Shown here one piece after another: positions 10,191 through 48,304 of a DNA stretch of 64,000 nt. Every line of letters begins with the position of its first letter. Within the stretch, counting starts at the first letter, position 1. The translations under genes and the position numbers were made by a program. The notes beneath the pieces are model-generated. The model was given only the letters and a program-made list of their open reading frames with translations. It was not told where the DNA came from and searched no databases. The stretch lies in the NCBI RefSeq assembly GCF_003432065.1, contig NZ_QWDE01000003.1, positions 248,001 to 312,000 of the forward strand. The letters run 5' to 3'. This DNA is from Mucilaginibacter terrenus. Lineage in GTDB: Bacteria > Bacteroidota > Bacteroidia > Sphingobacteriales > Sphingobacteriaceae.

Positions 10191-10229
10191 ATTGTTAAAT
10201 GTAAATTGATGAATGGGCGGCAAATTGTA

Positions 10230-10237
10230 CAAATTTA
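10230..10237 (-). promoter_or_regulatory. Bacteroidota -7 box for pgk (TAAATTTG)
   Basis: The minus strand reads TAAATTTG, matching the Bacteroidota -7 consensus TAnnTTTG, 40 nt upstream of the pgk ATG. A TTTG word occurs upstream but with a 22-nt spacer, longer than the usual 19, so the -33 element is uncertain. Confidence 0.45.
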
Positions 10238-10288
10238 TTCTAAAACCCAACCCTAAATTCAAAAAGCAGCGGTGTTTGGCTTAAAATT

Positions 10289-11718: not shown

Positions 11719-11735
11719 GACTTAAAATCAGGATG

Positions 11736-11743
11736 CAAAATTA
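11736..11743 (-). promoter_or_regulatory. Bacteroidota -7 box for gap (TAATTTTG)
   Basis: The minus strand reads TAATTTTG, a full TAnnTTTG match, 18 nt upstream of the gap ATG. No clear TTTG is seen at the -33 position. Confidence 0.45.
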
Positions 11744-11773
11744 GAAAATATAGATTAGAATAGCTTATAGAGC

Positions 11774-12874
11774 TTAGGCGAACAAAAAGCGGATAGTAAA
11801 GCGTTCCCGCTCGCGGCAACGCAGGCAAAAGGTAATGCCCCAGTTGAATAACAGCGAGATGCCAAATATTACGCCCATTAAAGCAAAGTTGCCAATGAAA
11901 CTAAACCTCAGCACCATTACTATGGTAATAATATTAATGCCTGCCAAAATAAAGGTAGTTTGCAAATGGTTAAACCCAAGCCTAAGCATACGATGGTGAA
12001 TGTGGTTGCGATCGGCACCGAAAGGAGATGTACCCTTAGCTATGCGTAAGATAAACACTCTCAAAGTATCAAAAATAGGCCCGATAAGAATAGCAAAGGC
12101 TACAGCAGGAGCAGAATATATAGCAGGGGAATTGTTAGCGGTAAGCTTGTTAGCCTCTATAAACTGCAACGCCATTACAGCCGATATTAAGCCGATGAGC
12201 AATGAGCCCGTATCGCCCATGAATATTTTAGCGGGCGTAATATTAAACCGGAGGAAACCAATTACTGCTCCAACAATCGCAAGGGAAATGGCTGCCAGTT
12301 CGTAACGTTTCATGTAAACAAACAGAATAGTAAACGTTCCGTTTACTATTACACAGGTGGTGCCGGCAAGGCCGTCTATGCCGTCTATAAGGTTGAATGC
12401 ATTAACAATAAGGATGATAAACAATATAGATATGGCGGCGCTTTCGAAGTAGCTGAGATCATATATCCCAAACACGCCGTAAAGGCTGGTTAAGCGGATA
12501 TCGCCAAGCAAAACCAACAGGGCACCTACAAAAAACTGGATGACGAATTTGGTGCTGGGATTAACACCGGATAAATCGTCCTTTAAACCCATTGCAAAAA
12601 GGATGATACTAGATGTAAGGATATAGGTTAGCGGAACGCTTTTATCAACCATGCTAAAAATAAGCAGTGTAAGATTGAAGCTGGCAAAGATAGCCACCCC
12701 ACCCAAACGCGGTATACCATGGTCATGCTGTTTGCGAAAATGGCCAACATCATCATAAAGGTGACGGGTACGTGCAACATGTAAAATTGATGGAATGGAG
12801 AGTAATGTTGTCAGAATTGAAAACACTACTATACAGAGATAGTATAAATAATGAATATTAAAATATTCGGGCAT
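11774..12874 (-). CDS. WecA/TagO-type undecaprenyl-phosphate glycosyl-1-phosphate transferase
   Basis: 366 residues with about 10-11 membrane segments. It transfers a HexNAc-1-phosphate from a UDP-sugar to undecaprenyl phosphate, starting a lipid-linked glycan. Family motifs: GLKDDL (Asp pair, about residue 97), NAFNLIDGIDGLAGT (about 158), FMGDTGS (about 214) and the WecA-type cytoplasmic loop GADRNHIHHRM with its His cluster. The loop separates it from MraY. It lies next to a large exopolysaccharide locus on the opposite strand and is the only visible initiating enzyme for it. Confidence 0.92.
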   Translation of the reverse strand: MPEYFNIHYLYYLCIVVFSILTTLLSIPSILHVARTRHLYDDVGHFRKQHDHGIPRLGGVAIFASFNLTLLIFSMVDKSVPLTYILTSSIILFAMGLKDDLSGVNPSTKFVIQFFVGALLVLLGDIRLTSLYGVFGIYDLSYFESAAISILFIILIVNAFNLIDGIDGLAGTTCVIVNGTFTILFVYMKRYELAAISLAIVGAVIGFLRFNITPAKIFMGDTGSLLIGLISAVMALQFIEANKLTANNSPAIYSAPAVAFAILIGPIFDTLRVFILRIAKGTSPFGADRNHIHHRMLRLGFNHLQTTFILAGINIITIVMVLRFSFIGNFALMGVIFGISLLFNWGITFCLRCRERERFTIRFLFA

Positions 12875-17610: not shown

Positions 17611-19395
17611 ATGTGCAGGATAGCTGGACTGATAGCTGAAGGGCTAAATCAGTCGCAAATAAGGGCTTCTGTGACGGCTATGTGTAATACTATGCAACAT
17701 GGCGGTCCGGACGATGAGGGGATATATGAAGATGAGAGCGCAGGCCTGGCTTTCGGGCACCGAAGGCTGTCTATTATTGATTTAAGCAAAAATGGCCATC
17801 AACCTATGACAGACCCGCGTAATAGGGTTTGGATTACATTTAACGGCGAAATATACAATTATCGCGAGTTAAGGGCAAATCTGGAACGGTCGGGAGTAAC
17901 CTTTAATACACAAACAGACACAGAAGTACTAATACAAGTTTATTGTAAATGGGGAACATCCGGGTTCAATAAACTACGAGGAATTTTTGCTTTTGCCCTG
18001 TACGATTCGGCGAGATTTGAGACCTACCTTGTACGCGATTCCAGTGGCGTAAAACCACTGTATTATTCATCAAATAGGCAGCGCCTTGCATTCGCATCAG
18101 AGATCAAAGCGTTTAAAGCTGCGGGCATTGCCACACAACCAAATACGGTTTGGCCTGTATTGTTGTTAGCATACGGCCATATTCCTGAGCCACAAACCAC
18201 ACTGAAAGATGTATACAGCTTGCCCAAAGGACATTACTTGTGCAGGAACAAAAACGGAAGCGTTAAACTTGAGAAATATACGTGCGAAGTAATTGGCGAC
18301 CAGATTTTAACTATCAACGGCGCAGAGGATGGTATACGGCACTTGCTTAATGCTTCGGTAAAAAGACAAATGTTATCAGACGCCCCTATCGGTGTTTTCC
18401 TGAGCGGTGGAATAGACTCATCTATCCTGTCATTGCTGGCCAATGAAGAAGGGGGTGAACAGCTTAAAACGATCTCCATTTTCTTTAATGAAAAACAATA
18501 CAACGAACGGCAGTATCAAAATGCAGTACTGAAAAAAATAGCCGGTAATACCAATACGCACCTGGTAACCGAAAGGGATTTCAGCAAGCATTTCCCCGAT
18601 ATACTTGCCGCTATGGATATGCCTACCACTGATGGCATAAATAGCTGGTTCATTAGCAAATATGCCCATGACACCGGTTTAAAGGCTGTACTATCAGGTA
18701 TTGGAGCGGATGAACTTTTTGGCGGGTACCCATCGTTCAAAAGAATTCGTTTCATTAAGCAATTAAGGCGATTTCCTGCGTCACTGTTGCTAAAAACAAG
18801 TCGTCTTAGCATTGGCAATTTTAAACGGCTTTCGTACCTTGCTTATGATCATTCGGCAGCAGATTACCTTTTCTTACGCGGACTTTATACCGTTAGTGAT
18901 ATAGCGCTGATATTGAATATACATGAGGCTGAGGTAAGTCAGATCCTCTTTGATCAGAATACTCATTCACGATCCGGAAATTACGATAAACTACATGCCG
19001 CCTGGTACGAAACAAACATCTACATGCAAAATCAGCTACTACGCGATACCGATGTAATGAGCATGTGCCACGGGCTCGAAGTAAGAGTCCCGTTTTTAGA
19101 TGAAGATTTACAGGCTTTCACATCCCATATTGACCCGGCGATTCGATTTGAAAAAGGCCGGCCAAAGCAGTTGTTAATAGACAGTTTCAAAGACATCTTG
19201 CCTCAAGCTGTGTGGAACAGGCCCAAAATGGGCTTCACTTTTCCGCTTCAGCAGTGGATGAAAAACAACCCGGATGTGGTTAACACCGGGAGATACAAAG
19301 GAAGCTTTGCTAAGAAAACAATAGAAGGTTTTAAATCAGGTACAACTCATTGGTCACAAGCATTTGCGCTTTATCAGGTACAAGCTCATGTCTAA
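17611..19395 (+). CDS. Asparagine-synthase-like glutamine amidotransferase of polysaccharide loci
   Basis: 594 residues. Cys2 of MCRIAG is the N-terminal nucleophile of a class II glutaminase domain (residues 1-190; GHRRLSIIDLS, FNGEIYNYRE). The synthetase domain has the ATP-binding loop LSGGIDSS (about 266). True AsnB makes asparagine from aspartate, but paralogs are common in exopolysaccharide and exosortase loci, where they probably amidate a sugar carboxylate or supply amide groups. Position 3 is Arg rather than the Gly of housekeeping AsnB. Which role applies here cannot be decided from sequence. Confidence 0.88.
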   Translation: MCRIAGLIAEGLNQSQIRASVTAMCNTMQHGGPDDEGIYEDESAGLAFGHRRLSIIDLSKNGHQPMTDPRNRVWITFNGEIYNYRELRANLERSGVTFNTQTDTEVLIQVYCKWGTSGFNKLRGIFAFALYDSARFETYLVRDSSGVKPLYYSSNRQRLAFASEIKAFKAAGIATQPNTVWPVLLLAYGHIPEPQTTLKDVYSLPKGHYLCRNKNGSVKLEKYTCEVIGDQILTINGAEDGIRHLLNASVKRQMLSDAPIGVFLSGGIDSSILSLLANEEGGEQLKTISIFFNEKQYNERQYQNAVLKKIAGNTNTHLVTERDFSKHFPDILAAMDMPTTDGINSWFISKYAHDTGLKAVLSGIGADELFGGYPSFKRIRFIKQLRRFPASLLLKTSRLSIGNFKRLSYLAYDHSAADYLFLRGLYTVSDIALILNIHEAEVSQILFDQNTHSRSGNYDKLHAAWYETNIYMQNQLLRDTDVMSMCHGLEVRVPFLDEDLQAFTSHIDPAIRFEKGRPKQLLIDSFKDILPQAVWNRPKMGFTFPLQQWMKNNPDVVNTGRYKGSFAKKTIEGFKSGTTHWSQAFALYQVQAHV

Positions 19396-20523: not shown

Positions 20524-21798
20524 ATGCCTCCGGTAATAAAGGTCAAAAACTTATCTAAAGCATATCAACTGGGTACATTTGGTACAGGCACCATATCGCG
20601 TGATCTTGAGCGTTACTGGGCACGCATCAGAGGTAAGGATGATCCCTTTCTTAAAATTGGAGAAGTAAACGATCGCACAACCAAAGGCCAAAGCGATATG
20701 GTTTGGAGCCTTAAAGACCTAAATTTTAATATAGAACAGGGGGGTGCTGTAGGTGTTATTGGCCGTAACGGGGCGGGTAAGAGCACCTTGCTAAAAATAT
20801 TAAGCCGCATCACCTCTCCCACTACCGGTACGGTAAAGGTAAAAGGAAGAGTAGCCAGTTTACTTGAGGTAGGCACGGGCTTTCATCCCGAATTAAGCGG
20901 CCGGGAAAACATATACCTCAACGGTGCTATACTGGGTATGCGTAAAGCCGAAATAAAGCGGAAGTTTGACGAGATAGTAGACTTTGCAGGCGTAGAGCGC
21001 TATATAGACACACCTGTAAAACGTTATTCATCAGGGATGTACGTGCGCCTGGCATTTGCTGTAGCCGCTCACCTTGAATCAGAGATACTGGTGATTGATG
21101 AGGTACTTGCAGTAGGCGACGCCGAATTTCAAAAAAAGTGTCTCGGCAAAATGGGCGATGTAAGCCGTGGGGAGGGCCGCACGGTACTATTTGTTTCTCA
21201 CAATATGGGGAGCATCTTACAGCTCTGTAACACCAGCATGCTGCTCAACAACGGCAAAATCATGTTCATAGGCCCTACTGAGGCTACTGTTAAAACTTAC
21301 ATGAGCAGCGCCGTTACCGACAGATCGGGCATCAAGGCCATCGGCACATTGAAGGACACCATAAAAGTAACATCGCTTACTGTAAATGAGACCCCAATTG
21401 ATGCTCTGTTAATGCCACATGATGAGGTACTTATCAAAGTCAATTATGAGTGTACCAAGCCGTTAAAAGAATTCAGAATCTCAATTAACGTGTTTAAAGA
21501 GGGCACAACTGTGCTCACCATGCATGATTTGGAGGTTGGCAGGCCCATTGAGCCTGGTAAGTACGAATCTATCATCAGGATACCGGCTTTCTTCCTGCGC
21601 CCGGGTGGATATACCCTGGCGGTTGGAGGGCATAACTCTAATTTTAAGAACCTGACAATTGAAAATCTGGAGTGGTTTTACATTCCGGATATCAGTGCTT
21701 TTGAGATACTGGAAGCCTGGAGTGAAAACTTCGATTTTAACAACAAGGGCCTTATAAATCTCCCGAATACAGGCGGGAAACGCACTTTTCTGGGTTGA
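20524..21798 (+). CDS. ABC transporter ATPase of polysaccharide export (Wzt-like)
   Basis: 424 residues. ATPase domain (about 1-245): Walker A GRNGAGKS (about 82), signature RYSSGMYVRLAF, Walker B ILVIDEVLAVGD, H-loop VSHN. The C-terminal part (about 265-405) is a beta-rich domain like the Wzt glycan-binding domain that recognises the finished chain end. Such ATPases work with a Wzm-type permease that carries the polymer across the inner membrane. No permease gene is present in this window. Confidence 0.92.
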   Translation: MPPVIKVKNLSKAYQLGTFGTGTISRDLERYWARIRGKDDPFLKIGEVNDRTTKGQSDMVWSLKDLNFNIEQGGAVGVIGRNGAGKSTLLKILSRITSPTTGTVKVKGRVASLLEVGTGFHPELSGRENIYLNGAILGMRKAEIKRKFDEIVDFAGVERYIDTPVKRYSSGMYVRLAFAVAAHLESEILVIDEVLAVGDAEFQKKCLGKMGDVSRGEGRTVLFVSHNMGSILQLCNTSMLLNNGKIMFIGPTEATVKTYMSSAVTDRSGIKAIGTLKDTIKVTSLTVNETPIDALLMPHDEVLIKVNYECTKPLKEFRISINVFKEGTTVLTMHDLEVGRPIEPGKYESIIRIPAFFLRPGGYTLAVGGHNSNFKNLTIENLEWFYIPDISAFEILEAWSENFDFNNKGLINLPNTGGKRTFLG

Positions 21799-25724: not shown

Positions 25725-26410
25725 AGCAGTTCTTGAGAAAATTGCTTGCCAGCATACTTACAGCTACTTTTGGGCGCCAAAAGCTAATGTTCCTGCTTAG
25801 TGAACCGGAGGACAATGCGCTACTCGGCTTTAAACGGGACGGCTACCTGCATGACATTGGTTGGGTAAACTCTATAGCGAACAACGCCATTATAGATGTT
25901 ACCGGCCAGCCACTCCCCTGGGTAACTTACCCATTCATTCACTTTATAACGCCAAGGCTGCAGGAAACCTTTGCGCTTTTTGAATTTGGAAGCGGCAACT
26001 CAACCCTCTACTACAGCAAGAGAGTTGCACAGGTAGACAGCGTAGAGAACGACCGGCATTGGTACGAAAAGATCAGGAACACCATGCCTGTAAATGTTAA
26101 TCTTTTTTATTGCGAGATGAAAGCAGGCGGCAGGTATAGCCGTTACGCGCTGGAAACTGAAAAGAAATATGATGTTGTTATAGTAGACGGACGCGACCGT
26201 GTAAATTGCTGCAAGAACAGCATCCCTGCCTTAACAGAGAACGGAATTATTGTGTTGGACGATTCAGAAAGAGCAGAGTATAGCCAGGGTACAGATCACC
26301 TAAAAGCTGCCGGATTTAAGCAGCTGGACTTTTGGGGATTGGCTCCTGGTGTAACCTATCTTAAGTGTACCAGCATATTTTACCGGGACAATAACTGCCT
26401 TAATATTTAA
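25721..26410 (+). CDS. SAM-dependent methyltransferase-like protein
   Basis: 229 residues. A Rossmann-type SAM motif FEFGSGNST (about residues 89-97) is followed by an acidic beta2 end (VDSVENDRHWYEK) and by DVVIVDGRDR and GIIVLDD. The first 60 residues are helical and less conserved. It may methylate a sugar or a nucleotide-sugar; the target is unknown. Translationally coupled to the GT11 gene (ATGA) and to the following fusion gene (TAATG). Confidence 0.7.
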   Translation: MKQFLRKLLASILTATFGRQKLMFLLSEPEDNALLGFKRDGYLHDIGWVNSIANNAIIDVTGQPLPWVTYPFIHFITPRLQETFALFEFGSGNSTLYYSKRVAQVDSVENDRHWYEKIRNTMPVNVNLFYCEMKAGGRYSRYALETEKKYDVVIVDGRDRVNCCKNSIPALTENGIIVLDDSERAEYSQGTDHLKAAGFKQLDFWGLAPGVTYLKCTSIFYRDNNCLNI

Positions 26411-28134
26411 TGCCTTTAGCTCCTATTGTTCTTTTTGTTTATAGTCGTCCTGAACACACCAGGCAGGTGCTGACTGCATTGGCAGCTAATGAACTTGCAA
26501 ATGACTCGACCCTGTACATTTTTGCTGATGGGGCAAAACATGACGCGGATGCAGAAGCACTAAAGAATATTGAAGAAACCCGCAAAGTTATAAGGGAGAA
26601 GCAATGGTGCCGGGAGGTTTTCATTACTGAGTCTGTAGCCAACAAGGGACTAGCCGGTTCTGTTATTTCCGGTGTTACCCAGGTGGTAAATAAACATGGC
26701 GCTGTAATCGTTTTGGAAGATGATCTGATCACTTCCAGGTACTTCCTGCGCTTCATGAACGAAGCACTTACAACTTACCGCGAAGAGCAAAATGTATTAA
26801 GCATTGGGGCGCTCAACTTTTTCGCCGCAGATGATGCCGTAAGTGACACGTTTTTTGTACCAATACCCGACTGCTGGGGCTGGGCTACCTGGGCGGACAG
26901 ATGGCAGCTATTTGAGCCTAACCCTCAAAAACTATTAAATCAGCTTAGGGAGCAAGGGCTTATAAGTAAATTCAACCTCCACGGAGCTTACCGCTTTGAA
27001 GACATGCTGATTGACCAAATAAAAGGCAATGTCAACTCCTGGGCCATACGCTGGCAGGCAGTGGCCTATCTGGAAAATAAACTAACCTTGTATCCAAAAC
27101 ATTCGGTCACTAAAAATATTGGCTTTGGTGCCGGCGGAACTCACGGCGGGAACGACCAGTATACCGGTAAGATAAAGTTTGCCGAAACGCCTGTAAAGGT
27201 GAAAAAACTCCTTGTTGCAGAAAATGAATCTATCACGCGGAAAATGATAGAGGGATATCGCGAGGTTACCTTACCGTCCCAAAAAGCAAAGGCAAAACGA
27301 GCCATTCGCGAACAGGTAAAACAACTCATCCCACCGGGGCTTAGCAGTTTGTACAGAAAAGCACGCCCACACAAGGGAAGCTCGGTAATGTGGGCCGGTA
27401 ATTACAAAAACTGGGAGGAAGCGCAAAAAGAAACATCGGGTTATGAAGATGCTTCCATCCTTCAAAAAACGAAGGCGGCCATACTGAAGGTGAAGAACGG
27501 TGAGGCGGCCGGTGAGCGCGATTCGGTATTGTTCGACAAAGTTCCTTACAGTTGGCCGGCAATTGCCGGTCTGCTAAAAGCAACCGCAGAGAACGACAAT
27601 AAATTAAATGTAATAGATTTCGGAGGTGCCTTAGGTTCCAGCTATTTTCAGTTTAAAGCCATAGCACCATTTGGTGCCAAACTTCAATGGACGGTAGTAG
27701 AGCAGCCCGCTTATGTAGACCCAGGCAATGCAGATGTAGCAGACGGAGTATTAAATTTCGCCTACACCATTGACGAGGCACTGCAAAACAACAAGGCAAA
27801 CGTATTGCTGCTATCCAGCGTGCTGCAATACTTGCCAAACCCTTACGGGTTTGTTGCTTCGTTAAGTAGTTATAACTTTAAATACATACTTATCGACAGA
27901 ACATCATTTATAGCTGGTAACGAGCAGCGCTTAACTATACAAAACGTACCATCGAGCATTCACCGGGCATCATACGCCTGCTGGTTCTTTAACGAAGAAG
28001 TGTTTATTGCCGTCTTTAAAAACAATTATCAACTTATAGCAGATTTTGACAGCCATATAGATTACCCGTCCAAAGCTGAAGATGGTGCAAAGCTATATTG
28101 GAAAGGCTTTTTATTTAAACTGAATGAAGCTTAA
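26410..28134 (+). CDS. Two-domain protein: GT2/GNT-I-like transferase fused to a TIGR04325-type methyltransferase
   Basis: 574 residues. The N-terminal half (about 1-290) is a GT-A domain: VLFVYSRPEHTRQVLTAL, VANKGLAGSV, VLEDD (about 107-111) and DCWGWATWADRW. A basic linker (about 290-325) leads to a C-terminal domain (about 330-574) with SAM-like VIDFGGALGSSYFQFK, VVEQPAYV and LLLSSVLQYLPNPY, the pattern of the LIC12133-type putative methyltransferases. The continuous frame shows a true fusion, suggesting that sugar addition and modification are linked. Domain family names are from memory. Confidence 0.78.
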   Translation: MPLAPIVLFVYSRPEHTRQVLTALAANELANDSTLYIFADGAKHDADAEALKNIEETRKVIREKQWCREVFITESVANKGLAGSVISGVTQVVNKHGAVIVLEDDLITSRYFLRFMNEALTTYREEQNVLSIGALNFFAADDAVSDTFFVPIPDCWGWATWADRWQLFEPNPQKLLNQLREQGLISKFNLHGAYRFEDMLIDQIKGNVNSWAIRWQAVAYLENKLTLYPKHSVTKNIGFGAGGTHGGNDQYTGKIKFAETPVKVKKLLVAENESITRKMIEGYREVTLPSQKAKAKRAIREQVKQLIPPGLSSLYRKARPHKGSSVMWAGNYKNWEEAQKETSGYEDASILQKTKAAILKVKNGEAAGERDSVLFDKVPYSWPAIAGLLKATAENDNKLNVIDFGGALGSSYFQFKAIAPFGAKLQWTVVEQPAYVDPGNADVADGVLNFAYTIDEALQNNKANVLLLSSVLQYLPNPYGFVASLSSYNFKYILIDRTSFIAGNEQRLTIQNVPSSIHRASYACWFFNEEVFIAVFKNNYQLIADFDSHIDYPSKAEDGAKLYWKGFLFKLNEA

Positions 28135-39294: not shown

Positions 39295-40306
39295 ACGCTC
39301 CACTAATTGGTTTTACGGAGTAGACAGCATCCGCTTTGTGCTGGCCTTTATTGTAATGCTATCGCATTTTGATAATGTATGGGCCGAAAGTCTTAAGAAT
39401 TCTGCTATACTTCCTGTTAAACTGGCTGGCGCCTTTCTTGCAAACGCCTTTGATGGCACATCTGCGGTAATAGCTTTCTTTATTATTTCGGGCTTTGTTA
39501 TACATTATCCTTGCAAAGGCGGGATAGCTCATGTAGGTCGCTTCTGGATTCGGCGTTTTGTTAGAATTATTATTCCCTTAGCATTGATTTGTATAGCAGG
39601 ATCAGCTTTCAATCATCCGGAAAAGACAGTAACGTGGAGTTTGTATTGTGAGTTAATTTACTATGCAATCTACCCTGCCTTGCTGAGCATTAACTTAAGT
39701 TGGAAAAACAAGTTCATCCTTTCTTGGCTGGTTGCAGCAGTGTTCATCCTGGTAGCTGCTAAGCATGATATTTTCGCATTGGTAAGGCAAACAGGTATCG
39801 GTTATCATGGCTACTACTGGCAATTTGGAAACTATTTTACCTGGATAGTGGGCTTGCCTTGCTGGCTGCTGGGGGTGTTGATAGCCGAGAATATAGATCA
39901 GGCAAAAGAAATTAAATTCTCGCGACTGCAAGGTTATCGTACTCTTGTTTTCTTTGTTAGTTGCCTTTGCAGCGTGGCTAAGTTCCATGCGCATTTAAGT
40001 TATATCATCTCCATGAATCTGTTTGCACTATTACTGTACAAGTGGATAGAAGCAGAAATATCTTACTACAAAAATCACTCACCTTATTCTTCTCTTGAGC
40101 GGATGGGGAAATTCTCATACTCATTATACTTGTGTCACCCGCTGGTTTTCTTGTTACTAAAACGATGGTTGATAATAGATAATGCTACTTATATCCTCTT
40201 TGTGGTACTAACAATAGTTGCCGCATACCTTTTTTATCTGGTGATAGAAAAACCATCTCATAAACTGGCCCGGCACATCAACGGGCTGCTATTCTCAACT
40301 GATTGA
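39278..40306 (+). CDS. Membrane acyltransferase (AT3/OafA family), third copy
   Basis: 342 residues, about 9-10 membrane segments. Signatures: VDSIRFVLAFIVMLSHF with the conserved His, AFFIISGFVIHYP, and VTWSLYCELIYYAIYP. Predicted to O-acylate the locus glycan. Three AT3 proteins in one locus suggest several distinct acylation sites. TTGA overlap with the next gene. Confidence 0.88.
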   Translation: MTLAGKRSTNWFYGVDSIRFVLAFIVMLSHFDNVWAESLKNSAILPVKLAGAFLANAFDGTSAVIAFFIISGFVIHYPCKGGIAHVGRFWIRRFVRIIIPLALICIAGSAFNHPEKTVTWSLYCELIYYAIYPALLSINLSWKNKFILSWLVAAVFILVAAKHDIFALVRQTGIGYHGYYWQFGNYFTWIVGLPCWLLGVLIAENIDQAKEIKFSRLQGYRTLVFFVSCLCSVAKFHAHLSYIISMNLFALLLYKWIEAEISYYKNHSPYSSLERMGKFSYSLYLCHPLVFLLLKRWLIIDNATYILFVVLTIVAAYLFYLVIEKPSHKLARHINGLLFSTD

Positions 40307-41583
40307 AACGCGTTCTTATTATCTCTCCTTACTTTCCTCCTTCCAACATGCCTGATATGCAGCGTGTGAGAATAAGCCTACCCTTTTTTAAAGAAAATGG
40401 TTGGGAGGCCGAAGTACTAACAACAGACCAACAGCTGAGTGACGCTCCAAAAGATCCATTACTAACAAAAAGTATTCCCAAAGACATACTCGTACATACG
40501 GTTAAGGCATTAAACAAGAAGTGGACAATGAGAATAGGCTTTGGTAATATAGCTTATCGTTCCTGGTGGTTTTACAAACAAAAGGGGAATGATCTGCTAA
40601 AACAGAAACAATTTGACCTGATATACTTTTCAACCACTCAGTTCTCGGCGTGCACTCTTGGTGCTTATTGGCGGCGGCGATTTGGTATACCGTACGTTAT
40701 TGACATGCAGGATCCCTGGCATACGGATTATTACCTTAATAAACCGAAACATGAACGCCCCGCCAAACACTGGCTATCCTATCGGGTTAATAAATGGCTG
40801 GAGTCAAAAGCCATGAAGGATGTTGGAGGATTGATAAGCGTCTCTCCGCAGTACATCGCAGATCTAAAGGCAAGGTACCCTGAAATAAAAGATATTCCGA
40901 CTGCGATTATTACGTTTGGTAGTTCCGATCAAGACATGGCGATTGCAAAAAAACACGGAGACGACTTCCCCAAGCTACTTAATCCTACCTATAAAAACGT
41001 TGTTTATATAGGGCGGGGTGGTACTGATATGCATAAAGCTATAACGCCTTTTTTTGAATCAATTAAGCAGGGGCTGTCTCAGCAGCCAGAAGCATATAAC
41101 AGACTGAGGTTGCATTTTATAGGTACCAGCTACGCCCCACAGGATACTGGCACCCCTACAATACTCCCTCTTGCGAAAGAGTACGAGTTAGAAGGGATAA
41201 TTACTGAAGTAACAAACAGGATAAGCTATTATCACGCGTTAAGCACAATTAAGCAGGCCGATGCGCTTTTTATTCCAGGCTCAGATGATGCTAAGTACAC
41301 CGCATCTAAAATTTACCCGTACTTACTCAGCAAAAAGCCTCTGCTTGCTATTTTCCACAGGCAGAGCCCGGCTATAAGCACCTTAAAAGAGTTTGACGCG
41401 ACAGATGTACATAACTTTGACAATGATGCACACTTACAGGAACACATAAGAAGATTTTTGATGTCTGTGTTAGAAGGCAAAGCCATCCCCCCGGTTTATA
41501 ATGCTGACGCTTTGGTGAGATACTCCGCAAAAGAGCTTACACGGAAACAGTGCGAACTTTTCGACAGCGTAATAGAATCTTAA
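40303..41583 (+). CDS. GT4-like glycosyltransferase
   Basis: 426 residues, TTG start overlapping the previous stop (TTGA). N-terminal KRVLIISPYFPPSNMPDMQR, then GIPYVIDMQDPWHTDYY (about 126-142), a block seen in many Bacteroidota transferases of this group. The C-terminal domain has VVYIGRGGTDMHKAI and a less typical donor site (LFIPGSDDAKYTASKIYPYL). Function in chain assembly is likely, sugar unknown. TAATG junction with the next gene. Confidence 0.8.
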   Translation: MKRVLIISPYFPPSNMPDMQRVRISLPFFKENGWEAEVLTTDQQLSDAPKDPLLTKSIPKDILVHTVKALNKKWTMRIGFGNIAYRSWWFYKQKGNDLLKQKQFDLIYFSTTQFSACTLGAYWRRRFGIPYVIDMQDPWHTDYYLNKPKHERPAKHWLSYRVNKWLESKAMKDVGGLISVSPQYIADLKARYPEIKDIPTAIITFGSSDQDMAIAKKHGDDFPKLLNPTYKNVVYIGRGGTDMHKAITPFFESIKQGLSQQPEAYNRLRLHFIGTSYAPQDTGTPTILPLAKEYELEGIITEVTNRISYYHALSTIKQADALFIPGSDDAKYTASKIYPYLLSKKPLLAIFHRQSPAISTLKEFDATDVHNFDNDAHLQEHIRRFLMSVLEGKAIPPVYNADALVRYSAKELTRKQCELFDSVIES

Positions 41584-42746
41584 TGAGTATAAATTATCCG
41601 AAGAAACTCGCTATAATTACAACGCACCCCATACAGTATTATGCGCCTGTATTCCGGTTATTGGCGCAGCAACTGGACCTGAAAGTATTTTATACCTGGG
41701 GAGAAGCTTCGTTAAGTAAACATGATCCTGGGTTTGGTAAAAAAATCAAATGGGACATTGACCTTTTAGACGGATACAAATACGAATGGGTTCACAACTC
41801 AGCCTGTGACAAAGGTTCACACCACTATAAAGGCATAAAAAATCCTTCCCTTATAACAGAACTGGAACAATGGCAGCCTGATGCAATTTTGGTTTACGGT
41901 TGGGCTTATCACAGCCACTTACGTGTTATCAGGCATTTTTCAAAAAAGATCAAACTCCTGTTCCGTGGCGACTCTACCTTGCTTGATGATAGTAACGGTG
42001 TAAAAAGCCACCTTAAAGCTGTTTTTTTAAGATGGGTTTACAACCACATTGATATTGCTATTTATCCCGGCCAAAATACCATGGCTTACTTTAAGAAGTA
42101 TGGTGTTGAAGATCATCGCCTTGTTTTTGCACCCCATGCTGTAGAAAACAGCAGGTTTGCAGAAGACAGGTCCGTTGACGCTGCTGCTATTAGGGCGTCA
42201 TTATATATCGACAATGAAAGGCTCATGATATTATTCGCCGGAAAGTTTGAGAAGAAAAAAGACCCTTTGCTGCTGTTGAAAGCTTTTCAACAGCTTAGCC
42301 AACCTAATATACACCTGTTGTTTGTTGGGAACGGTCCATTAGAAAAGGAATTAAAACAACACGCTAACTGCTGGGCTAATATCCACTTTCTAAACTTTCA
42401 AAATCAGTCGGCAATGCCTGCAGTATACCAGGCTTGTGATCTATTCTGCCTGCCATCAATGGGACCGGCGGAGACCTGGGGATTAGCCGTTAATGAAGCC
42501 ATGGCTTGTTCCAAAGCCATTATTGCTTCTGATAAAACTGGGTGCGTTCCCGACCTGGTTGTAAATGGTCGCAATGGCTTTATATTTAAAGCCGGCGATG
42601 TTACTTCATTACTCGAAAAGTTAAATTTGGCGGTTGAACAAGGCAAAATGGGATTAACGAGTATGGGAAAAGTGTCGAATGAAATGATAATACCCTGGAA
42701 TTTTGAGGTACAGGCTGAAGTGATTGTAAAACAGGTAAATGGCTAA
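41583..42746 (+). CDS. GT4 glycosyltransferase
   Basis: 387 residues from ATG 41583, which shares a base with the preceding stop; a GTG at 41550 would lie within the previous gene. KKLAIITTHPIQYYAPVFRLL is a typical opening. Donor domain: LFAGKFEKKKDPLLLLKAF, FVGNGPLEKELK and LPSMGPAETWGLAVNEAMAC with the EX7E glutamates (about 302-310). Ends with an 8-bp overlap (ATGGCTAA) into the polymerase gene. Confidence 0.92.
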   Translation: MSINYPKKLAIITTHPIQYYAPVFRLLAQQLDLKVFYTWGEASLSKHDPGFGKKIKWDIDLLDGYKYEWVHNSACDKGSHHYKGIKNPSLITELEQWQPDAILVYGWAYHSHLRVIRHFSKKIKLLFRGDSTLLDDSNGVKSHLKAVFLRWVYNHIDIAIYPGQNTMAYFKKYGVEDHRLVFAPHAVENSRFAEDRSVDAAAIRASLYIDNERLMILFAGKFEKKKDPLLLLKAFQQLSQPNIHLLFVGNGPLEKELKQHANCWANIHFLNFQNQSAMPAVYQACDLFCLPSMGPAETWGLAVNEAMACSKAIIASDKTGCVPDLVVNGRNGFIFKAGDVTSLLEKLNLAVEQGKMGLTSMGKVSNEMIIPWNFEVQAEVIVKQVNG

Positions 42747-44151
42747 GCGTACCGCAAATCCTATTGAGCGGTATATTGTACTATATATACCATGGCTGTT
42801 ATCGTTGCTTTTTGCTAATGATGCCATAGTATCGTACTTTATTGCCTGGTTGGGTTCGTTCTTTATATTTTTTATATGCTACTCCGGATATATTAAGCCA
42901 ATACCAACCGACAGGAACATTGGCGAGCAACTAATGCGACCGATTTTCCTCGTTCAAATTGTATTTGTGGGTTATATGGCGTGCAGCTCCATTTTTTACT
43001 TTCTGAACTTGCTTGGGGTAAACGATCTCTCTGGCCAGGGCATATACTTTATTGTCGATAAGGAAAAACTTGCGCTTACTGCTAAATGCCAGCAGTACTA
43101 TGCACTGGGCCATGCGGCTTTGGCTTCGGGCATGATACTGTTCATGAACTACGACTTTAAGCCCCAATACAGGACGGACAGAAACAAACTCGCCAACGTT
43201 ATCTTCCAGATAGCAGTCATCTCGCTTCCCATTTCCATACTGTCCATCCGTATTCCGGGGTTGAGCCAATTCTATTTTCAGTTTAGTTCACTGAGCTTTA
43301 TAGCGGGCACATTAGCCCTTGCTTTTGCTATTCCATTAAAAAAAGCAGCGACTATATTTTTCAGTTTACTGCTATATATTTCCAACTTTTACCAGGCGCT
43401 TACCTCCGGTTTCAAAGAACCGATCATAATAAGTGTTTTAGTATTAGGTATATTTCTCTATCCCAATTACAAAAAAATAGTAACACTTGTGTTCGGGCCG
43501 GCACTATTGTTACTGTTTATCTTTTTGCCCACCTATAACCACGTTTTCCGTGAGAATGCGTGGGGAGATAATGTCGATTCTGACGAGGCTTATAAACTAG
43601 CACTAGACGCAACGATAAATGGCGATGAGGAAGAGGATAACTCAACCTGGGGTTTCCTGGTATTCAGGTTAAGCGAAGTGGATATGTTTACAACGTACCT
43701 GCAATCCACACCGGCAAATGTAGGATACTATGGCTTTACGCTTGTAAAGCAATCGGCAGTGGCAATAGTGCCCCGTATAATTTGGCCTGGCAAACCTATT
43801 ACAGAGGATTGGGTAATGGAGCGCGTTTACAATGCCGGTGTTGTAAAACGAGGTTCTACCGTGTCTGCCAAGCCCGCCTATATTGTTGATGGCTACCTAT
43901 CATGGGGTATCCCAGGGGTTTTCTTTTCGCTGTTTATTTTTGGTGCACTGGCACAGTCAATCTCTGTTAAAGCTGAACAGCTTTTTGGTGGATATATATT
44001 GGGGACGGCACTTATATACAGCGGCTTATTCCAAATATTTTGGCGTGGACTAAGCTTTGAATTTTTAGTAAATTCTGTTTTTTGGAGTTATGTTACCATG
44101 CTGATGGTGCATAAAATATTGTTGAAAAAACGCATCCTTGAGAAGATTTGA
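42739..44151 (+). CDS. Wzy-like polysaccharide polymerase (exosortase-Y-associated type)
   Basis: 470 residues with about 11-12 membrane segments and a large periplasmic loop (about 270-360) containing HVFRENAWGDNVDSDEA, FRLSEVDMFTTYL and VPRIIWPGKP. This layout is that of O-antigen/exopolysaccharide polymerases, which join lipid-linked units in the periplasm. From memory, databases name relatives next to this exosortase group 'exosortase Y-associated Wzy-like protein'. It lies four genes before the exosortase. No flippase (Wzx) gene is seen in the locus. Confidence 0.8.
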   Translation: MAKRTANPIERYIVLYIPWLLSLLFANDAIVSYFIAWLGSFFIFFICYSGYIKPIPTDRNIGEQLMRPIFLVQIVFVGYMACSSIFYFLNLLGVNDLSGQGIYFIVDKEKLALTAKCQQYYALGHAALASGMILFMNYDFKPQYRTDRNKLANVIFQIAVISLPISILSIRIPGLSQFYFQFSSLSFIAGTLALAFAIPLKKAATIFFSLLLYISNFYQALTSGFKEPIIISVLVLGIFLYPNYKKIVTLVFGPALLLLFIFLPTYNHVFRENAWGDNVDSDEAYKLALDATINGDEEEDNSTWGFLVFRLSEVDMFTTYLQSTPANVGYYGFTLVKQSAVAIVPRIIWPGKPITEDWVMERVYNAGVVKRGSTVSAKPAYIVDGYLSWGIPGVFFSLFIFGALAQSISVKAEQLFGGYILGTALIYSGLFQIFWRGLSFEFLVNSVFWSYVTMLMVHKILLKKRILEKI

Positions 44152-45278
44152 AGATACTGCACATAACACCTGCTTATAAGCCTGCCTACGTGTATGGTGG
44201 GCCTACTATGTCAGTAGCAATGTTGTGCGAAGAGCTTACAAAAACAGGTGTTTTTGTAGACGTTTTTACTACTACCGCCAACGGCAACACCGAACTTGAT
44301 GTTACTCCAAACGTGCTGCAAAATGTAGACGGGGTTGATGTGACCTACTTTAAACGTATTACTAAAGACCACACCCATTTTTCGCCTGCTTTACTAAAGC
44401 ACTTGAATGGACACGTCAGGAACTATGACGTGGTTCATATTCATGCCTGGTGGAACCTTGTTTCCGTTCTTTCCTGCTTTGTTGCTGTAAAGAACGGCAT
44501 TCCTGTTGTAATCTCGCCCAGAGGTATGTTGAGCTCCTACTCATTTGATAACGGTATTAAAGGTATTAAGTCAATTTTACATAATAGCATAGGTAAAAGG
44601 TTGCTCAGTAAGTGCCACATTCATGCGACATCTGATTATGAAGCGGCGGTCATTAAAAGGTTAATCAATACAGATCGCATACACGCCTTACCAAACTTTG
44701 TTAAGCTATCTCATTCTGAAAACAACACTAGTCCAATGCCAACTAAAGAACTAAAGCTTCTCTTCTTTTCCCGTATTGACGAGAAGAAAGGGTTGGACAT
44801 TTTATTGGAGTCGTTAAAAATTTTGACGCTACCTTTTCAATTAACCATTGCCGGTGATGGCAATCCGGTTTACATTGAAAAACTTAAACAGCTAAGTACA
44901 GTCATTCAGGACAAAATCAGTTGGGTTGGGTTTATAAAGGAAGACAAGTTCAATCTGATTGCAAAACATGATCTCCTGGTATTGCCGTCGCACGACGAGA
45001 ACTTTGCCAATGTTGTAGTAGAAAGTTTAAGTGTAGGTACCGCTGTTTTGTTGAGCGAAAATGTGGGGCTTGCCGATTACGTCCTCGACAATAACTTTGG
45101 ATGGGTTTGCAAAACTACTCCATCATCAATTACTGAAAATATAGCCAATGTAGCGGCTAATAAAGTTTTATTAGAAGACATCAGAACAACAGCACCCACC
45201 AGGATAAAACAAGACTTTACAGGGGAACCATTAACAAAACAATATATCGATCTTTACCAGCATGTTATTGATCAATGA
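44148..45278 (+). CDS. GT4 glycosyltransferase next to the polymerase
   Basis: 376 residues, TTG start (TTGA overlap). Opening KILHITPAYKPAYVYGGPTM, IHAWWNLVSVL, ISPRGMLSSYSF, then donor domain LLFFSRIDEKKGLDILLESL and LPSHDENFANVVVESLSVG (EX7E, about 278-296). Its place between the Wzy-like and methyltransferase genes near the exosortase fits the XrtY-associated glycosyltransferase described for this family; that naming is from memory and uncertain. Confidence 0.9.
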   Translation: MKILHITPAYKPAYVYGGPTMSVAMLCEELTKTGVFVDVFTTTANGNTELDVTPNVLQNVDGVDVTYFKRITKDHTHFSPALLKHLNGHVRNYDVVHIHAWWNLVSVLSCFVAVKNGIPVVISPRGMLSSYSFDNGIKGIKSILHNSIGKRLLSKCHIHATSDYEAAVIKRLINTDRIHALPNFVKLSHSENNTSPMPTKELKLLFFSRIDEKKGLDILLESLKILTLPFQLTIAGDGNPVYIEKLKQLSTVIQDKISWVGFIKEDKFNLIAKHDLLVLPSHDENFANVVVESLSVGTAVLLSENVGLADYVLDNNFGWVCKTTPSSITENIANVAANKVLLEDIRTTAPTRIKQDFTGEPLTKQYIDLYQHVIDQ

Positions 45279-45895
45279 GCGACTATAAAGATTACGGCTT
45301 TCAGGAAAATACCATTACGCATAACCTCAGGTACATGCTTAAACCACTGCTCGGTATGCTTGACAAAGGTAAGAACCGGTGCATACTGGATCTGGGCTGC
45401 GGCAACGGCTACCTTGTAAATCATCTGGTATTATTAGGGTACAACGCCTACGGAACAGATGCCTCACAAGAAGGCATTGCTATTGCCAAACAGTCTAATC
45501 CGGACCGCTTTTTTGTGCAAGACCTATCCAGCAACGAGTTGCCTGAAGAATTACGGAAGATCCACTTTGACACAGTGATATCTACAGAAGTAATAGAGCA
45601 CTTGTATGACCCGGATGCATTTATAAATTTTTGCAGGCAACAACTTAGCCCGGGAGGTGAGCTCATTATTTCAACGCCATATCATGGTTATTTAAAAAAT
45701 CTTCTCTTGAGCGTCACTGACAGTTGGGACAAACATCAAAATCCGCGTTGGCTGGGCGGGCACATAAAAATGTGGTCGGTAAGAACATTAACCGGTTTGC
45801 TTGTTGATAAGGGTTTCACCGTAACCAACTTTGCTGGCTGTGGTCGGATACCTTATGTTTGGAAAAGCATGATCATTAAAGCCCGTCTAAGTTGA
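45275..45895 (+). CDS. Class I SAM-dependent methyltransferase
   Basis: 206 residues. Motif I DLGCGNGYL (about 35-43), motif II region GTDASQEG, post-II DTVISTEVIEHLYDP and motif III LSPGGELIISTPYH. This is the UbiG/UbiE-like arrangement; in polysaccharide loci such enzymes usually O-methylate sugars. ATGA and TTGA overlaps on its two sides show coupling with the GT4 and GT2 genes. Confidence 0.85.
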   Translation: MSDYKDYGFQENTITHNLRYMLKPLLGMLDKGKNRCILDLGCGNGYLVNHLVLLGYNAYGTDASQEGIAIAKQSNPDRFFVQDLSSNELPEELRKIHFDTVISTEVIEHLYDPDAFINFCRQQLSPGGELIISTPYHGYLKNLLLSVTDSWDKHQNPRWLGGHIKMWSVRTLTGLLVDKGFTVTNFAGCGRIPYVWKSMIIKARLS

Positions 45896-46767
45896 ATACG
45901 GAGTTTTCCTTTATCATTCTCACTTATAATGAGGAGGTACATCTGCCACGTTTGCTGGCGTCAATTAAAGACTTGGATGCCGAAACGTTCGTGCTAGACT
46001 CTTTCAGTAACGACAACACCTTGCAGCTTGCAACAGCTGCAGGAGCCAAAGTGCTACAGCATAAATTTGAAAACCACCCAAAGCAATGGCATCACGCGTT
46101 AACCAACTTTAAAGTAGTTACGCCATGGGTATTCTGCCTCGACGCAGACCAGGTGATTACACCCGAGCTAAAGCAGCTACTGCGTAGCTTTACAGATTCA
46201 GATTATGCCGGTATTAACGGCATTTACTTCAACCGTAAAAACTTCTTCAAGGGCAGGTGGATAAAACACGGTGGCTATTACCCTTTTTACCTGCTTAAAA
46301 TGTTCCGCTTCGGTGTTGGCTATTCTGATCTAAATGAGAACATGGACCATCGGTTCATTGTACCCGGCAACACCGCCGTCTGGAAGAAGGGTTACATTTT
46401 GGAAGAAAATTTAAAAGAGAACAACATCCGCTTTTGGATAGAAAAACACAACCGGTACAGTGACCTGCTTGCTTTGGAGGAAACCGAGAGAAGACGGGGA
46501 CTACGGATGCAAACTTTACAACCAAAATTTTGGGGTACACCAGACGAACGCACAGCGTGGCTTAAATTGCGCTGGTGGCACATGCCGTTGTACCTTAGGC
46601 CGGTACTCTACCTCTTTTACCGCCTGATTTTCAAATTGGGGATATTAGATGGACGCACGGGTATTATTTTCCATTTTATGCAGGCGTTCTGGTTTCGCCT
46701 GGTAGTAGATATTAAAATAGATGAACTAACAAAGACAGTAGATAATGCAAATAGGGATAAAAAATAA
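45892..46767 (+). CDS. GT2 glycosyltransferase (WaaE/KdtX-like)
   Basis: 291 residues, TTG start. Motifs: FIILTYNEEVHLPRLLASI, VLDSFSNDNT, HPKQWHHALTNF and LDADQV (about 79-84), followed by GIYFNRKNFFKGRWIKHGG, a block typical of the WaaE-like beta-1,4-glucosyltransferase group. A C-terminal basic-hydrophobic region (LYLRPVLYLFYRLIFK) may associate with the membrane. Overlaps the exosortase gene by 23 bp. Confidence 0.88.
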   Translation: MNTEFSFIILTYNEEVHLPRLLASIKDLDAETFVLDSFSNDNTLQLATAAGAKVLQHKFENHPKQWHHALTNFKVVTPWVFCLDADQVITPELKQLLRSFTDSDYAGINGIYFNRKNFFKGRWIKHGGYYPFYLLKMFRFGVGYSDLNENMDHRFIVPGNTAVWKKGYILEENLKENNIRFWIEKHNRYSDLLALEETERRRGLRMQTLQPKFWGTPDERTAWLKLRWWHMPLYLRPVLYLFYRLIFKLGILDGRTGIIFHFMQAFWFRLVVDIKIDELTKTVDNANRDKK

Positions 46768-47311
46768 CGTAGCTGTAAGGTTTGGCATTACTTTCCTTAT
46801 ACTATTCGTGCTGTTCTATTATGCCAACATTATCTTCTTTGGCCTTACTACCCGTCACAACAACTACAGTCTTTTCTTAAGTGAGCATTTAAACTATATA
46901 GCCTGGTTAAGGCATGCTTTGCTGACCAGTTCCTCTACAGTACTAAACTGGCTAGGCTATTCATCGGTTGCAAGCGATACCCAACTAATGGTGGCCGGAC
47001 ATGGACGTATAGAAATGGTATATACCTGCCTTGGGCTAGGCGTAATGAGCTTTTTCGCAGCTTTTGTAATTGCTTACCCAAAAAAAATTAAAGCTAAATT
47101 AATCTTCCTATTTACAGGACTACTATCCATACAAATCTTAAATGTTTTCAGATTAATGCTGCTGGCTTTATTCTGGACCAAATCCAAGAACCGAATTATA
47201 GATCACCACATTATCTTCGATGTAGTGATTTATATATTGATCTCCGTGGCCTTATACTACTGGATAAACAACAAAGCAACAAACACCAATGGGCACCACC
47301 AAACTGTCTGA
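46745..47311 (+). CDS. xrtY: Exosortase (XrtY-like)
   Basis: 188 residues, about 5-6 membrane segments. The exosortase/archaeosortase triad is visible: Cys95 in YTCLGLGVM, Arg136 in LNVFRLMLL and His154/155 in RIIDHHIIFD. These membrane transpeptidase-like enzymes cut proteins with a C-terminal sorting signal (motif, membrane helix, basic tail) and pass them on, usually together with exopolysaccharide production. The length and setting beside a Wzy-like protein and a WcaF-like acetyltransferase suggest the XrtY group of Sphingobacteriaceae. No protein with a matching C-terminal signal is seen in the window. Confidence 0.88.
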   Translation: MQIGIKNNVAVRFGITFLILFVLFYYANIIFFGLTTRHNNYSLFLSEHLNYIAWLRHALLTSSSTVLNWLGYSSVASDTQLMVAGHGRIEMVYTCLGLGVMSFFAAFVIAYPKKIKAKLIFLFTGLLSIQILNVFRLMLLALFWTKSKNRIIDHHIIFDVVIYILISVALYYWINNKATNTNGHHQTV

Positions 47312-47840
47312 ATATGATAACGCTCCTTACCATCCGGGTGGAAGTGCAATTAAACGTTTGCTTTGGTTTTACGTCAATGCTATTGTGTTTAAAACAAGTT
47401 TGCTCCCCATTAACGCAATTAAAGTGGCTTTACTGAAGTTGTTTGGAGCAAAATTAGGCAGCAGGGTTGTTATTAAGCCTTGCGTAAATATTAAATACCC
47501 GTGGCACCTTGTTGTAGGTAACGATACCTGGATAGGCGAAGGTGTTTGGATAGACAACCTGGTACCTGTAACTATAGGCAGCGATATTTGCATTTCACAA
47601 GGAGCCATATTGCAAACAGGTAGTCACAATTACAAACAGCGCACGTTTGACCTGATTACAGGCAATATTGTGTTGGCTGATGGTGCTTGGATAGGATGCT
47701 GTGCCATCATCAACCAGGGAATAACGGTAGGATCACACGCGGTGTTAACCGCAGGATCTGTAGCGACGAAAAATTTAGATGCTTTTGGTATTTACCAGGG
47801 CAACCCGGCAGTAAAAGTGCGGGAGAGAACTATTGAATAA
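47289..47840 (+). CDS. WcaF-like acetyltransferase (left-handed beta-helix)
   Basis: 183 residues with hexapeptide repeats from about residue 55 to 165 (VVIKPCVNIKYPWHLVVG, GNDTWIGEGVWIDN, ICISQGAILQTGSHN, ADGAWIGCCAIINQGI, VGSHAVLTAGSVATK). The SHNY segment holds the catalytic His typical of the colanic-acid WcaF type. Predicted to O-acetylate a sugar using acetyl-CoA. Overlaps the exosortase gene by 23 bp, so it is part of the same unit. Confidence 0.9.
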   Translation: MGTTKLSEYDNAPYHPGGSAIKRLLWFYVNAIVFKTSLLPINAIKVALLKLFGAKLGSRVVIKPCVNIKYPWHLVVGNDTWIGEGVWIDNLVPVTIGSDICISQGAILQTGSHNYKQRTFDLITGNIVLADGAWIGCCAIINQGITVGSHAVLTAGSVATKNLDAFGIYQGNPAVKVRERTIE

Positions 47841-47842
47841 CT

Positions 47843-48304
47843 ATGGTAACATTAAGCAAGTCATCGAGTAAACTCATCTACCTAGCTATAATCTTCGGGA
47901 TGATAATGTTGGCAGGAATATTTATTATAACTAAGAACCGACCTAAGCACTTGGAAGACCCACGTGAAAAAGGCAGAACGGCAGATGCAGCTAGCATCCA
48001 TGAAATTGCTTTACTTGATAATGCAAATACAAACGCGGTGTTTGTTTTCACCAAAGATTACCCGCAGTTTAATAACTTGAAAAATAAGGTTATACACATG
48101 AAGCCGCTTAACCTTGATCTGAGTCTAGATTTTGACAAGGCTGTTCATAAAGGCTTTATGGGGCCTATATACATACTGCTCCCATCCTACTATGTAGGTG
48201 TTCGCGCATCTGTAATTATGAAATGCTTCCCAGGCTATAAAGGTTTTAAACTAAAGGAGCTCAGCAACAACTACGTGCTTTATTATTCCAATCAGCCGCG
48301 GTAA
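47843..48304 (+). CDS. Unknown membrane-anchored protein ending the exosortase locus
   Basis: 153 residues. One membrane helix at about residues 10-30, then a soluble domain of about 120 residues, probably periplasmic, with a beta-rich centre (NAVFVFTKDYPQFNNL, MGPIYILLPSYYVG) and a C-terminal strand (ELSNNYVLYYS). I do not recognise the family. It follows the acetyltransferase by 2 bp and is the last gene of the unit; its stop directly abuts the obgE stop on the other strand. Linkage to the exosortase suggests an accessory role in sorting or glycan attachment. Confidence 0.7.
   Translation: MVTLSKSSSKLIYLAIIFGMIMLAGIFIITKNRPKHLEDPREKGRTADAASIHEIALLDNANTNAVFVFTKDYPQFNNLKNKVIHMKPLNLDLSLDFDKAVHKGFMGPIYILLPSYYVGVRASVIMKCFPGYKGFKLKELSNNYVLYYSNQPR

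Follow-up and report, generated by a model that had tools for sequence, protein, structure and literature searches.

An exosortase coupled to a GT2 glycosyltransferase, and often fused with it, in a polysaccharide cluster of Mucilaginibacter terrenus

This study concerns the exosortase XrtY and its gene neighbourhood in Mucilaginibacter terrenus, as encoded on a stretch of 64,000 nucleotides (contig NZ_QWDE01000003.1, positions 248,001–312,000, forward strand), hereafter the window. Several described systems resemble it in part (PMC numbers stand for excerpts of the papers concerned, except PMC8205485, from the main text of which the term exosortase is absent). In the XrtA/EpsH PEP-CTERM system the exosortase lies inside an exopolysaccharide (EPS) locus, as XrtY does, and its catalytic triad resembles that of XrtY; the M. 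terrenus genome, however, contained no PEP-CTERM match above cut-off. The fusions named for EpsH-type exosortases are to EpsI-like and CAAX-protease-like domains, not to GT2 (Haft 2006, PMC1569441). XrtG of Lactobacillaceae resembles XrtY in being a variant exosortase to which glycosyltransferases are dedicated, two of them being described alongside a single Firmicu-CTERM cargo (PMC12854382), but no linked cargo was found for XrtY, and the excerpt mentions no fusion for XrtG. Archaeosortase A shares with XrtY a gene neighbour that makes the presumed acceptor: artA adjoins pssA and pssD in several Methanosarcina, the Haloferax PssA and PssD are needed for lipid modification of an ArtA substrate, and the reaction has been proposed to pass through a thioester that an amine lipid then resolves (PMC7157517). 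The acceptor pathway there is that of a phospholipid, whereas the partner of XrtY makes a glycosidic bond. XrtF, which is needed for biofilm formation by F. johnsoniae, is another variant Bacteroidota exosortase without known targets (PMC10936215); its partner is the exosortase F system-associated protein, whereas that of XrtY is GT2. In one review of the exosortase model the acceptor of the cargo is called 'an unidentified compound' (PMC7468200).

The closest described locus is the XrtY/Wzy/XYAG1 locus of NCBIfam, and the window locus is of that type. All three models (NF046083, NF046084 and NF046085) matched window proteins above cut-off, which bears out the statement in a preliminary description of this DNA that the XrtY group is named in databases; curators already knew the locus type, having named XrtY, a Wzy-like protein and a GT4 glycosyltransferase. 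The names of these models, which are all that was compared, mention no GT2, no GT2-XrtY fusion, no GT-C tail and no mechanism. The fusion, the swapping of GT2 and a detached GT-C tail are new relative to that locus; no account of them was found in the excerpts of open-licence literature, nor did the excerpts of open-licence exosortase papers treat this locus or fusion. The features of the window on which the comparison rests are as follows.

45892–46767, + strand: GT2 glycosyltransferase of 291 amino acids (PF00535), the most constant partner of XrtY, fused or directly upstream in 111 of 117 loci
46745–46767, + strand: overlap of 23 bases between the genes for GT2 and XrtY (gap −23), the linker position and fusion point in fused relatives
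46745–47311, + strand: exosortase XrtY, 188 amino acids (NF046083, 237.3 bits against a cut-off of 160)
47027–47029, + strand: codon of the catalytic Cys95 of XrtY, invariant in 59 of 59 sequences
47150–47152, + strand: codon of the catalytic Arg136 of XrtY, invariant in 59 of 59
47207–47209, + strand: codon of the catalytic His155 of XrtY, invariant in 59 of 59; the adjacent His154 is at least 90% conserved
42739–44151, + strand: XrtY-associated Wzy-like polymerase, 470 amino acids (NF046084, 717.7 bits against a cut-off of 420)
44148–45278, + strand: GT4 glycosyltransferase XYAG1, 376 amino acids, TTG start (NF046085, 562.3 bits against a cut-off of 400)

Relatives of the locus comprised 59 loci from regions picked in XrtY-bearing genomes of the family Sphingobacteriaceae, together with the 80 best of the 165 relatives found by a scan. 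With the window added, these 139 loci yielded 117 distinct rows; the other 23 either duplicated an XrtY-bearing protein already in the set or had no XrtY match called. Thirty 3.5-kb family loci were omitted from the count. GT2 and XrtY formed a single polypeptide in 56 of the 117 loci, a share that belongs to this sample rather than to nature as the first 20 regions had been picked for long, presumably fused, frames. GT2 was a separate gene directly upstream of XrtY in a further 55, overlapping it in 45, and was lacking in 6; two separate-gene loci had gaps of 475 and 732 bases between GT2 and XrtY. Full flanks, defined as 6.5 kb or more upstream and 3.5 kb or more downstream, were available for 86 loci, of which 39 were fused. 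Among these 86, GT2 was present in 82, XYAG1 in 71, a WcaF-family acetyltransferase in 69, Wzy in 67, the GT4 proteins corresponding to the window genes at 41550 and 40303 in 66 and 59 respectively, the GT-C protein or its tail in 46 and the methyltransferase in 45. GT2 was thus the most constant of the counted neighbours, and the most constant partner of XrtY is GT2, not the polymerase. The coupling of the exosortase to glycan synthesis, which the preliminary description had proposed from the placement of the polymerase, is supported more strongly than could be seen there, albeit with GT2 as the tightest partner.

The 56 distinct fused proteins had open frames of 459–502 amino acids and similar linkers, which connected the C-terminus of GT2 to the N-terminus of XrtY. 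In a structure search with a fused relative, its GT2 portion showed a GT-A-like fold, with matches to ThuS and SunS (Z 17–19). The nearest solved relatives of GT2 are enzymes of this type, and no match bore out the earlier label 'WaaE-like'. When the fused or split state was mapped onto the XrtY tree at least 9 changes were needed, 3 of them forced by well-supported branches, and on the GT2 tree 10 changes. The GT2 proteins fell into two subfamilies of 96 and 15 rows, the smaller being defined by less than 45% identity to the window GT2, a threshold chosen after seeing the data. This division corresponded to one split on the GT2 tree (Shimodaira–Hasegawa-like approximate likelihood ratio test (SH-aLRT) support 99) but needed 8 changes on the XrtY tree, and fused forms occurred in both subfamilies (51 of 96 and 5 of 15). 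From this contrast between the trees, the GT2 partner appears to have been exchanged several times while its coupling to XrtY stayed. The XrtY-GT2 coupling itself is well supported.

The polymerase showed a dependence of a different kind. Of the 301 family genomes, 104 had a member of the Wzy family (NF046084) above cut-off; 102 of these also encoded XrtY (97 above cut-off and 5 at 100–160 bits), leaving 2 without it. The dependence is one-sided: Wzy hardly ever occurs without XrtY, and XrtY occurs with other polymerases or with none recognised. Tandem copies of the XrtY-associated Wzy gene were also seen, three in locus L054 and two each in L084 and L092.

XrtY was above cut-off in 114 of the 301 Sphingobacteriaceae genomes and in 70 of 100 Mucilaginibacter genomes. 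In a sample of the phylum it was above cut-off in 7 of 296 genomes, all 7 in the same family as the window; 89 of the 296 matched at an E value of 0.001, mostly weakly, and these are probably other exosortases. The XrtF model was a weaker match to the window exosortase (55.7 bits against a cut-off of 90). An alignment of 59 XrtY sequences (the window and 58 of the 59 family loci, L035 being omitted as a near copy of L036) showed Cys95, Arg136 and His155 to be invariant together with Tyr41, Gly97, Asn133 and Tyr163, so that the triad read earlier from the single sequence (Cys95, Arg136, His154/155) is confirmed with His155 as its histidine. The fused GT2-XrtY form was modelled with a mean predicted local distance difference test score (pLDDT) of 89 and a predicted template modelling score (pTM) of 0.71. 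The secondary structure of the model, taken with the positive-inside rule, suggests that XrtY has four membrane helices with both ends in the cytoplasm and the triad at periplasmic helix ends. No sequence relative of XrtY was found in the PDB, and the matches returned by a structure search with the fused-form model were filled by GT2 chains. In three genomes (G188, G245 and G610) the XrtY matches contained internal stop codons, and XrtY may therefore have been lost in some species.

Proteins encoded near XrtY were examined for a C-terminal sorting signal in three scans. Scan (a) applied strict hydropathy limits for a C-terminal helix and basic tail to 1205 open reading frames (ORFs) of the 59 family loci and the window. 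As it missed a full-length VIT protein linked to a second, XrtN-like exosortase (described below), scan (b) was relaxed to allow other helices, admitting proteins of at least 110 amino acids with 90 soluble residues before the helix; it covered 2437 ORFs of the 139 loci and recovers the VIT protein. Scan (c), the loosest, took the same 2437 ORFs from 60 amino acids upwards. Scan (a) returned six rows: contig-edge ORFs (L047 and L054), one ORF of L067, the end of a Wzy fragment (L077) and two small proteins (L092). Scan (b) returned ten, some of them export-protein-like or NusG-like by eye. In scan (c) 106 ORFs passed, with eight recurring groups of at least two distinct proteins. The largest group, of 36 distinct proteins from 39 loci, was the C-terminal end of the Wzy protein itself, which is expected of a multi-helix protein and is no evidence of sorting, though it leaves Wzy as a possible substrate; six other groups were judged by eye to be multi-helix or export proteins. 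In the window operon the only ORF to pass a crude filter was NusG-like, and no linked cargo with a C-terminal signal was found there.

The eighth group of scan (c), and the best-looking candidate, was a family of small proteins of 81–130 amino acids, each with a signal peptide, the motif WYxQPW, a helix and a basic tail; it was considered as XrtY cargo and rejected. Its members, sometimes in tandem pairs, lie among housekeeping genes downstream of the cluster (for example L092, 15027–15735; L078, 846–1549; L073, 14772–15017). A profile of five members matched 50 of the 301 family genomes, the window genome not among them and none listed of its genus, and XrtY scored at least 100 bits in 8 of the 50 carrier genomes, compared with 130 of the whole 301. 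These tripartite C-terminal ends occur mostly in genomes without XrtY.

The helix and basic-tail filter was also applied to 80 further stretches of the M. terrenus genome which, with the window, amounted to 1.664 of 4.615 Mb (36%) and 1624 ORFs. Sixteen ORFs passed. Their Pfam families were NusG-like, two export proteins, Wzz-like (below cut-off), metallo-beta-lactamase, DUF4349, two complex I domains, BatA, VIT, major facilitator superfamily (MFS), KdpC and SIS/GATase; four had no family. Two of these four are neighbours in stretch L200, and both end in a helix and a basic tail: 10130–11413 (427 amino acids, Lys/Gly-rich repeats and a PEP-like end) and 11708–12166 (152 amino acids). Both were rejected as cargo because each was present in 1 of 100 genomes of the genus, its own, whereas XrtY was in 70 of 100. 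The other two lie at 395–784 of L185 and 4116–4463 of L239. The VIT-domain protein (836 amino acids; L212, 7873–10383), whose C-terminus carries a PEP motif followed by a helix and a basic tail, adjoins the second, XrtN-like exosortase of 445 amino acids (L001, 916–2253; at about 2.048 Mb on C1 of the same genome; PF09721, 58 bits). The two are likely, from their adjacency and the protein's end, to be an enzyme-cargo pair, and the VIT protein, the one convincing exosortase-type signal in the scanned 36%, serves as a positive control. A further exosortase match at C3:181991 was rejected, its translation being that of an MFS-like transporter. Seven matches to the type IX sorting tail were above cut-off in the genome, showing that another surface route exists. 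The search for proteins with a motif, helix and basic tail that the preliminary description had called for thus yielded the neighbour of the XrtN-like exosortase and none for XrtY; of its proposal that protein sorting is coupled to a glycan, the coupling stands, and no cargo stood up near XrtY or in the scanned part of the genome. An XrtY system with many cargos is unlikely, and a single dedicated cargo may lie in the remaining 64%.

We tentatively favour a reading in which GT2 and XrtY act as one membrane-spanning unit, GT2 making or finishing a glycan acceptor to which XrtY joins a rare unlinked cargo, and hold it to be possible rather than probable. GT2 and XrtY, one polypeptide in about half of the relatives examined, would form a functional unit across the inner membrane. 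The cytoplasmic GT2 would extend a lipid-linked polysaccharide intermediate by a sugar, and XrtY, with its Cys, Arg and His on the periplasmic face, would act as a sortase-type thiol transferase. If a protein is involved, XrtY would take the glycan product as acceptor and attach to it, through a newly formed C-terminus, a rare cargo encoded away from the locus; the cargo would thereby become bound to the surface or to the polysaccharide. The proposal that GT2 makes the acceptor follows the same logic as that drawn from artA beside pssA and pssD (PMC7157517). Retention of the fusion while the type of glycosyltransferase changes points to the cluster's own sugar chemistry as acceptor or substrate, and the fused GT2-XrtY is a natural two-domain protein of soil bacteria in which the acceptor question is directly testable.

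Several results weigh against this reading. Fusion shows coupling, not acceptor synthesis by GT2, and the product of this cytoplasmic enzyme has to be flipped. Across the 2437 ORFs of the 139 loci, the scans turned up no single-helix C-terminal signal that recurs together with XrtY, none of the 16 ORFs passing in the scanned 36% of the genome is a conserved unexplained candidate, and the PEP-CTERM model PF07589 found nothing above cut-off in the whole genome, although it also misses the signal adjacent to the XrtN-like exosortase. Additionally, of the 130 genomes in which XrtY scored at least 100 bits, 28 lacked Wzy at cut-off (9 of the 28 have a lower-scoring Wzy match), and the exact numbers of changes (at least 9, 10 and 8) are soft, both trees having been built quickly, with many poorly supported branches and warnings of long branches. 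The same lack of a cargo in the XrtY loci and in the scanned genome would be expected if XrtY had none, and acted instead on a glycan, a lipid-linked intermediate or a resident machine such as Wzy, in chain transfer or release or in gating of the polymerase, GT2-XrtY then being purely biosynthetic. A glycosyltransferase as partner in 111 of 117 loci and the rarity of Wzy without XrtY agree with this, and the Wzy end as largest helix and basic-tail group would fit Wzy as the substrate, though such an end is expected of a multi-helix protein. Nevertheless, the invariant triad is that of protein-processing exosortases, the cargo scan covered 36% of the genome, and deletion of an exosortase in Nostoc lowered several extracellular PEP-CTERM proteins, cleavage not being seen (PMC12188702). 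We regard a cargo-less XrtY as rather unlikely. Its more specific form, that an exosortase fold was recruited to polysaccharide synthesis and that a bifunctional GT2-XrtY handles a glycan, lipid carrier or polymerase at its thiol site after the GT2 step, seems a little less likely still; if true, it would be new chemistry for the exosortase family.

Alternatively, XrtY might work as exosortases ordinarily do, on a cargo encoded elsewhere and with the usual kind of lipid acceptor, its fusion to GT2 reflecting mere co-expression or co-localisation with EPS export. EpsH-type exosortases are nearly always found among EPS genes (Haft 2006, PMC1569441), the XrtN-like enzyme of the same genome looks ordinary, and overlapping genes fuse easily. 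The repeated changes between fused and split states, the swaps of GT2 and the fusions in both subfamilies nevertheless exceed what would be expected of chance neighbours, and the co-occurrence of Wzy with XrtY is nearly one-sided; this explanation, too, is on balance improbable. That the fusions are artefacts of annotation or sequencing is barely credible: the split-form genes overlap out of frame, so that one indel could join them, but 56 distinct proteins hold the open frame with a similar linker and neighbouring tree rows share fusions.

The gene after WcaF, ORF153, had been described as an unknown anchored protein. It was rejected as a cargo and is a relict domain of a GT-C glycosyltransferase.

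47843–48304, + strand: ORF153, putatively anchored to the membrane; the periplasmic C-terminal domain of a GT-C glycosyltransferase, detached from the rest (56% identity to the tail of the L062 protein; GT-C fold of the full-length relative)

No Pfam or NCBIfam family matched ORF153 at an E value of 0.01. Amino acids 48–153 aligned, with 56% identity, to amino acids 419–524 of a 524-amino acid protein of L062 that also comes after WcaF, and full-length relatives of more than 500 amino acids were present in 50 loci. By sequence models the GT-C identity was not recovered; for one member the best Pfam match, PMT_2, scored 15.6 bits against a cut-off of 26.1. An AlphaFold2 model built on a 51-row alignment (pLDDT 85, pTM 0.86), however, matched the oligosaccharyltransferase subunit STT3 (8agc; Z 16.4, root-mean-square deviation (rmsd) 5.0, 429 aligned residues) and ArnT (5f15; Z 14.7, rmsd 4.8, 425 aligned), and the 524-amino acid relative is accordingly modelled as having a GT-C fold. 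D36, after its first helix, is at least 90% conserved and stands, we presume, where GT-C enzymes carry their catalytic acid. The relative shares its fold with the GT-C superfamily (ArnT, STT3/PglB, AftA/AftD), whereas the window retains only the C-terminal periplasmic domain: in the window genome only the part matching amino acids 418–524 was found, with no other match and no membrane catalytic part. ORF153 was also considered as an EpsI/DUF3485 exosortase partner, which was rejected as it had no family at that threshold and its tail matches the GT-C protein.

Tail-only forms were found in seven loci, the window and L061, L063, L065, L066, L096 and L097; short forms in L103, L111, L142 and L174 were rejected as further tails because they are at contig ends. 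By eye, five of the seven have a lipobox-like start (L061, L065, L066, L096, L097) and two a membrane helix (the window, L063). These seven and the full-length L062 form one well-supported set of eight on the XrtY tree; in the seven the membrane part appears to have been lost and the soluble tail re-anchored in two ways. The ratio of non-synonymous to synonymous substitution rates (dN/dS) of the tail was 0.18, against 0.05–0.09 for three neighbours in the same single pair of relatives, the one computed pair with unsaturated synonymous change (dS 1.3). The tail thus appears to be under constraint, less than its neighbours are, and as the genome lacks the enzyme it would be kept without it, a periplasmic domain retained without its catalytic membrane part; perhaps it serves in glycan binding or partner docking.

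The polysaccharide cluster to which XrtY belongs comprises 33 ORFs, all on the + strand (window 13763–48304), overlapping or near-contiguous with a largest gap of 102 bases. Its final block (42739–48304) consists of seven contiguous genes from Wzy to ORF153, spaced by −4, −4, −4, −23, −23 and +2 bases; all seven ORFs of the preliminary description were present at their coordinates, on the + strand and arranged as it had reported. The methyltransferase and GT2 were each above the Pfam cut-off. The remaining genes of the block, and two of the conserved module upstream of it, are listed below.

40303–41583, + strand: GT4-like glycosyltransferase in the upstream section of the conserved module (PF13439, 31.0 bits; near XrtY in 59 of 86 full-flank loci)
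41550–42746, + strand: GT4 glycosyltransferase in the upstream section of the conserved module (PF00534; near XrtY in 66 of 86)
45275–45895, + strand: S-adenosylmethionine methyltransferase, 206 amino acids (PF13489; near XrtY in 45 of 86)
47289–47840, + strand: WcaF-family acetyltransferase, 183 amino acids (NF007797, 227.3 bits against a cut-off of 192)

The cluster begins with Wza (13763), Wzc (14555) and a NusG-like protein (16993), followed by glycosyltransferases, acyltransferases and methyltransferases. An asparagine synthase-like amidotransferase (17611–19395) scored 347 bits to the XrtA/PEP-CTERM amidotransferase model TIGR03108 (cut-off 816.9). A Wzt-type ATP-binding cassette (ABC) ATPase (20524–21798) with a Wzt_C-like end (26 bits, below the cut-off of 30.4) is encoded alongside the Wzy-like polymerase in this cluster, and the scanned part of the cluster ORFs included no ABC permease. 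The protein encoded at 26410–28134 (574 amino acids) had no Pfam match at an E value of 1e-4; its N-terminal part is glycosyltransferase-like by eye, and its C-terminal part (amino acids 327–570) is a TIGR04325 methyltransferase.

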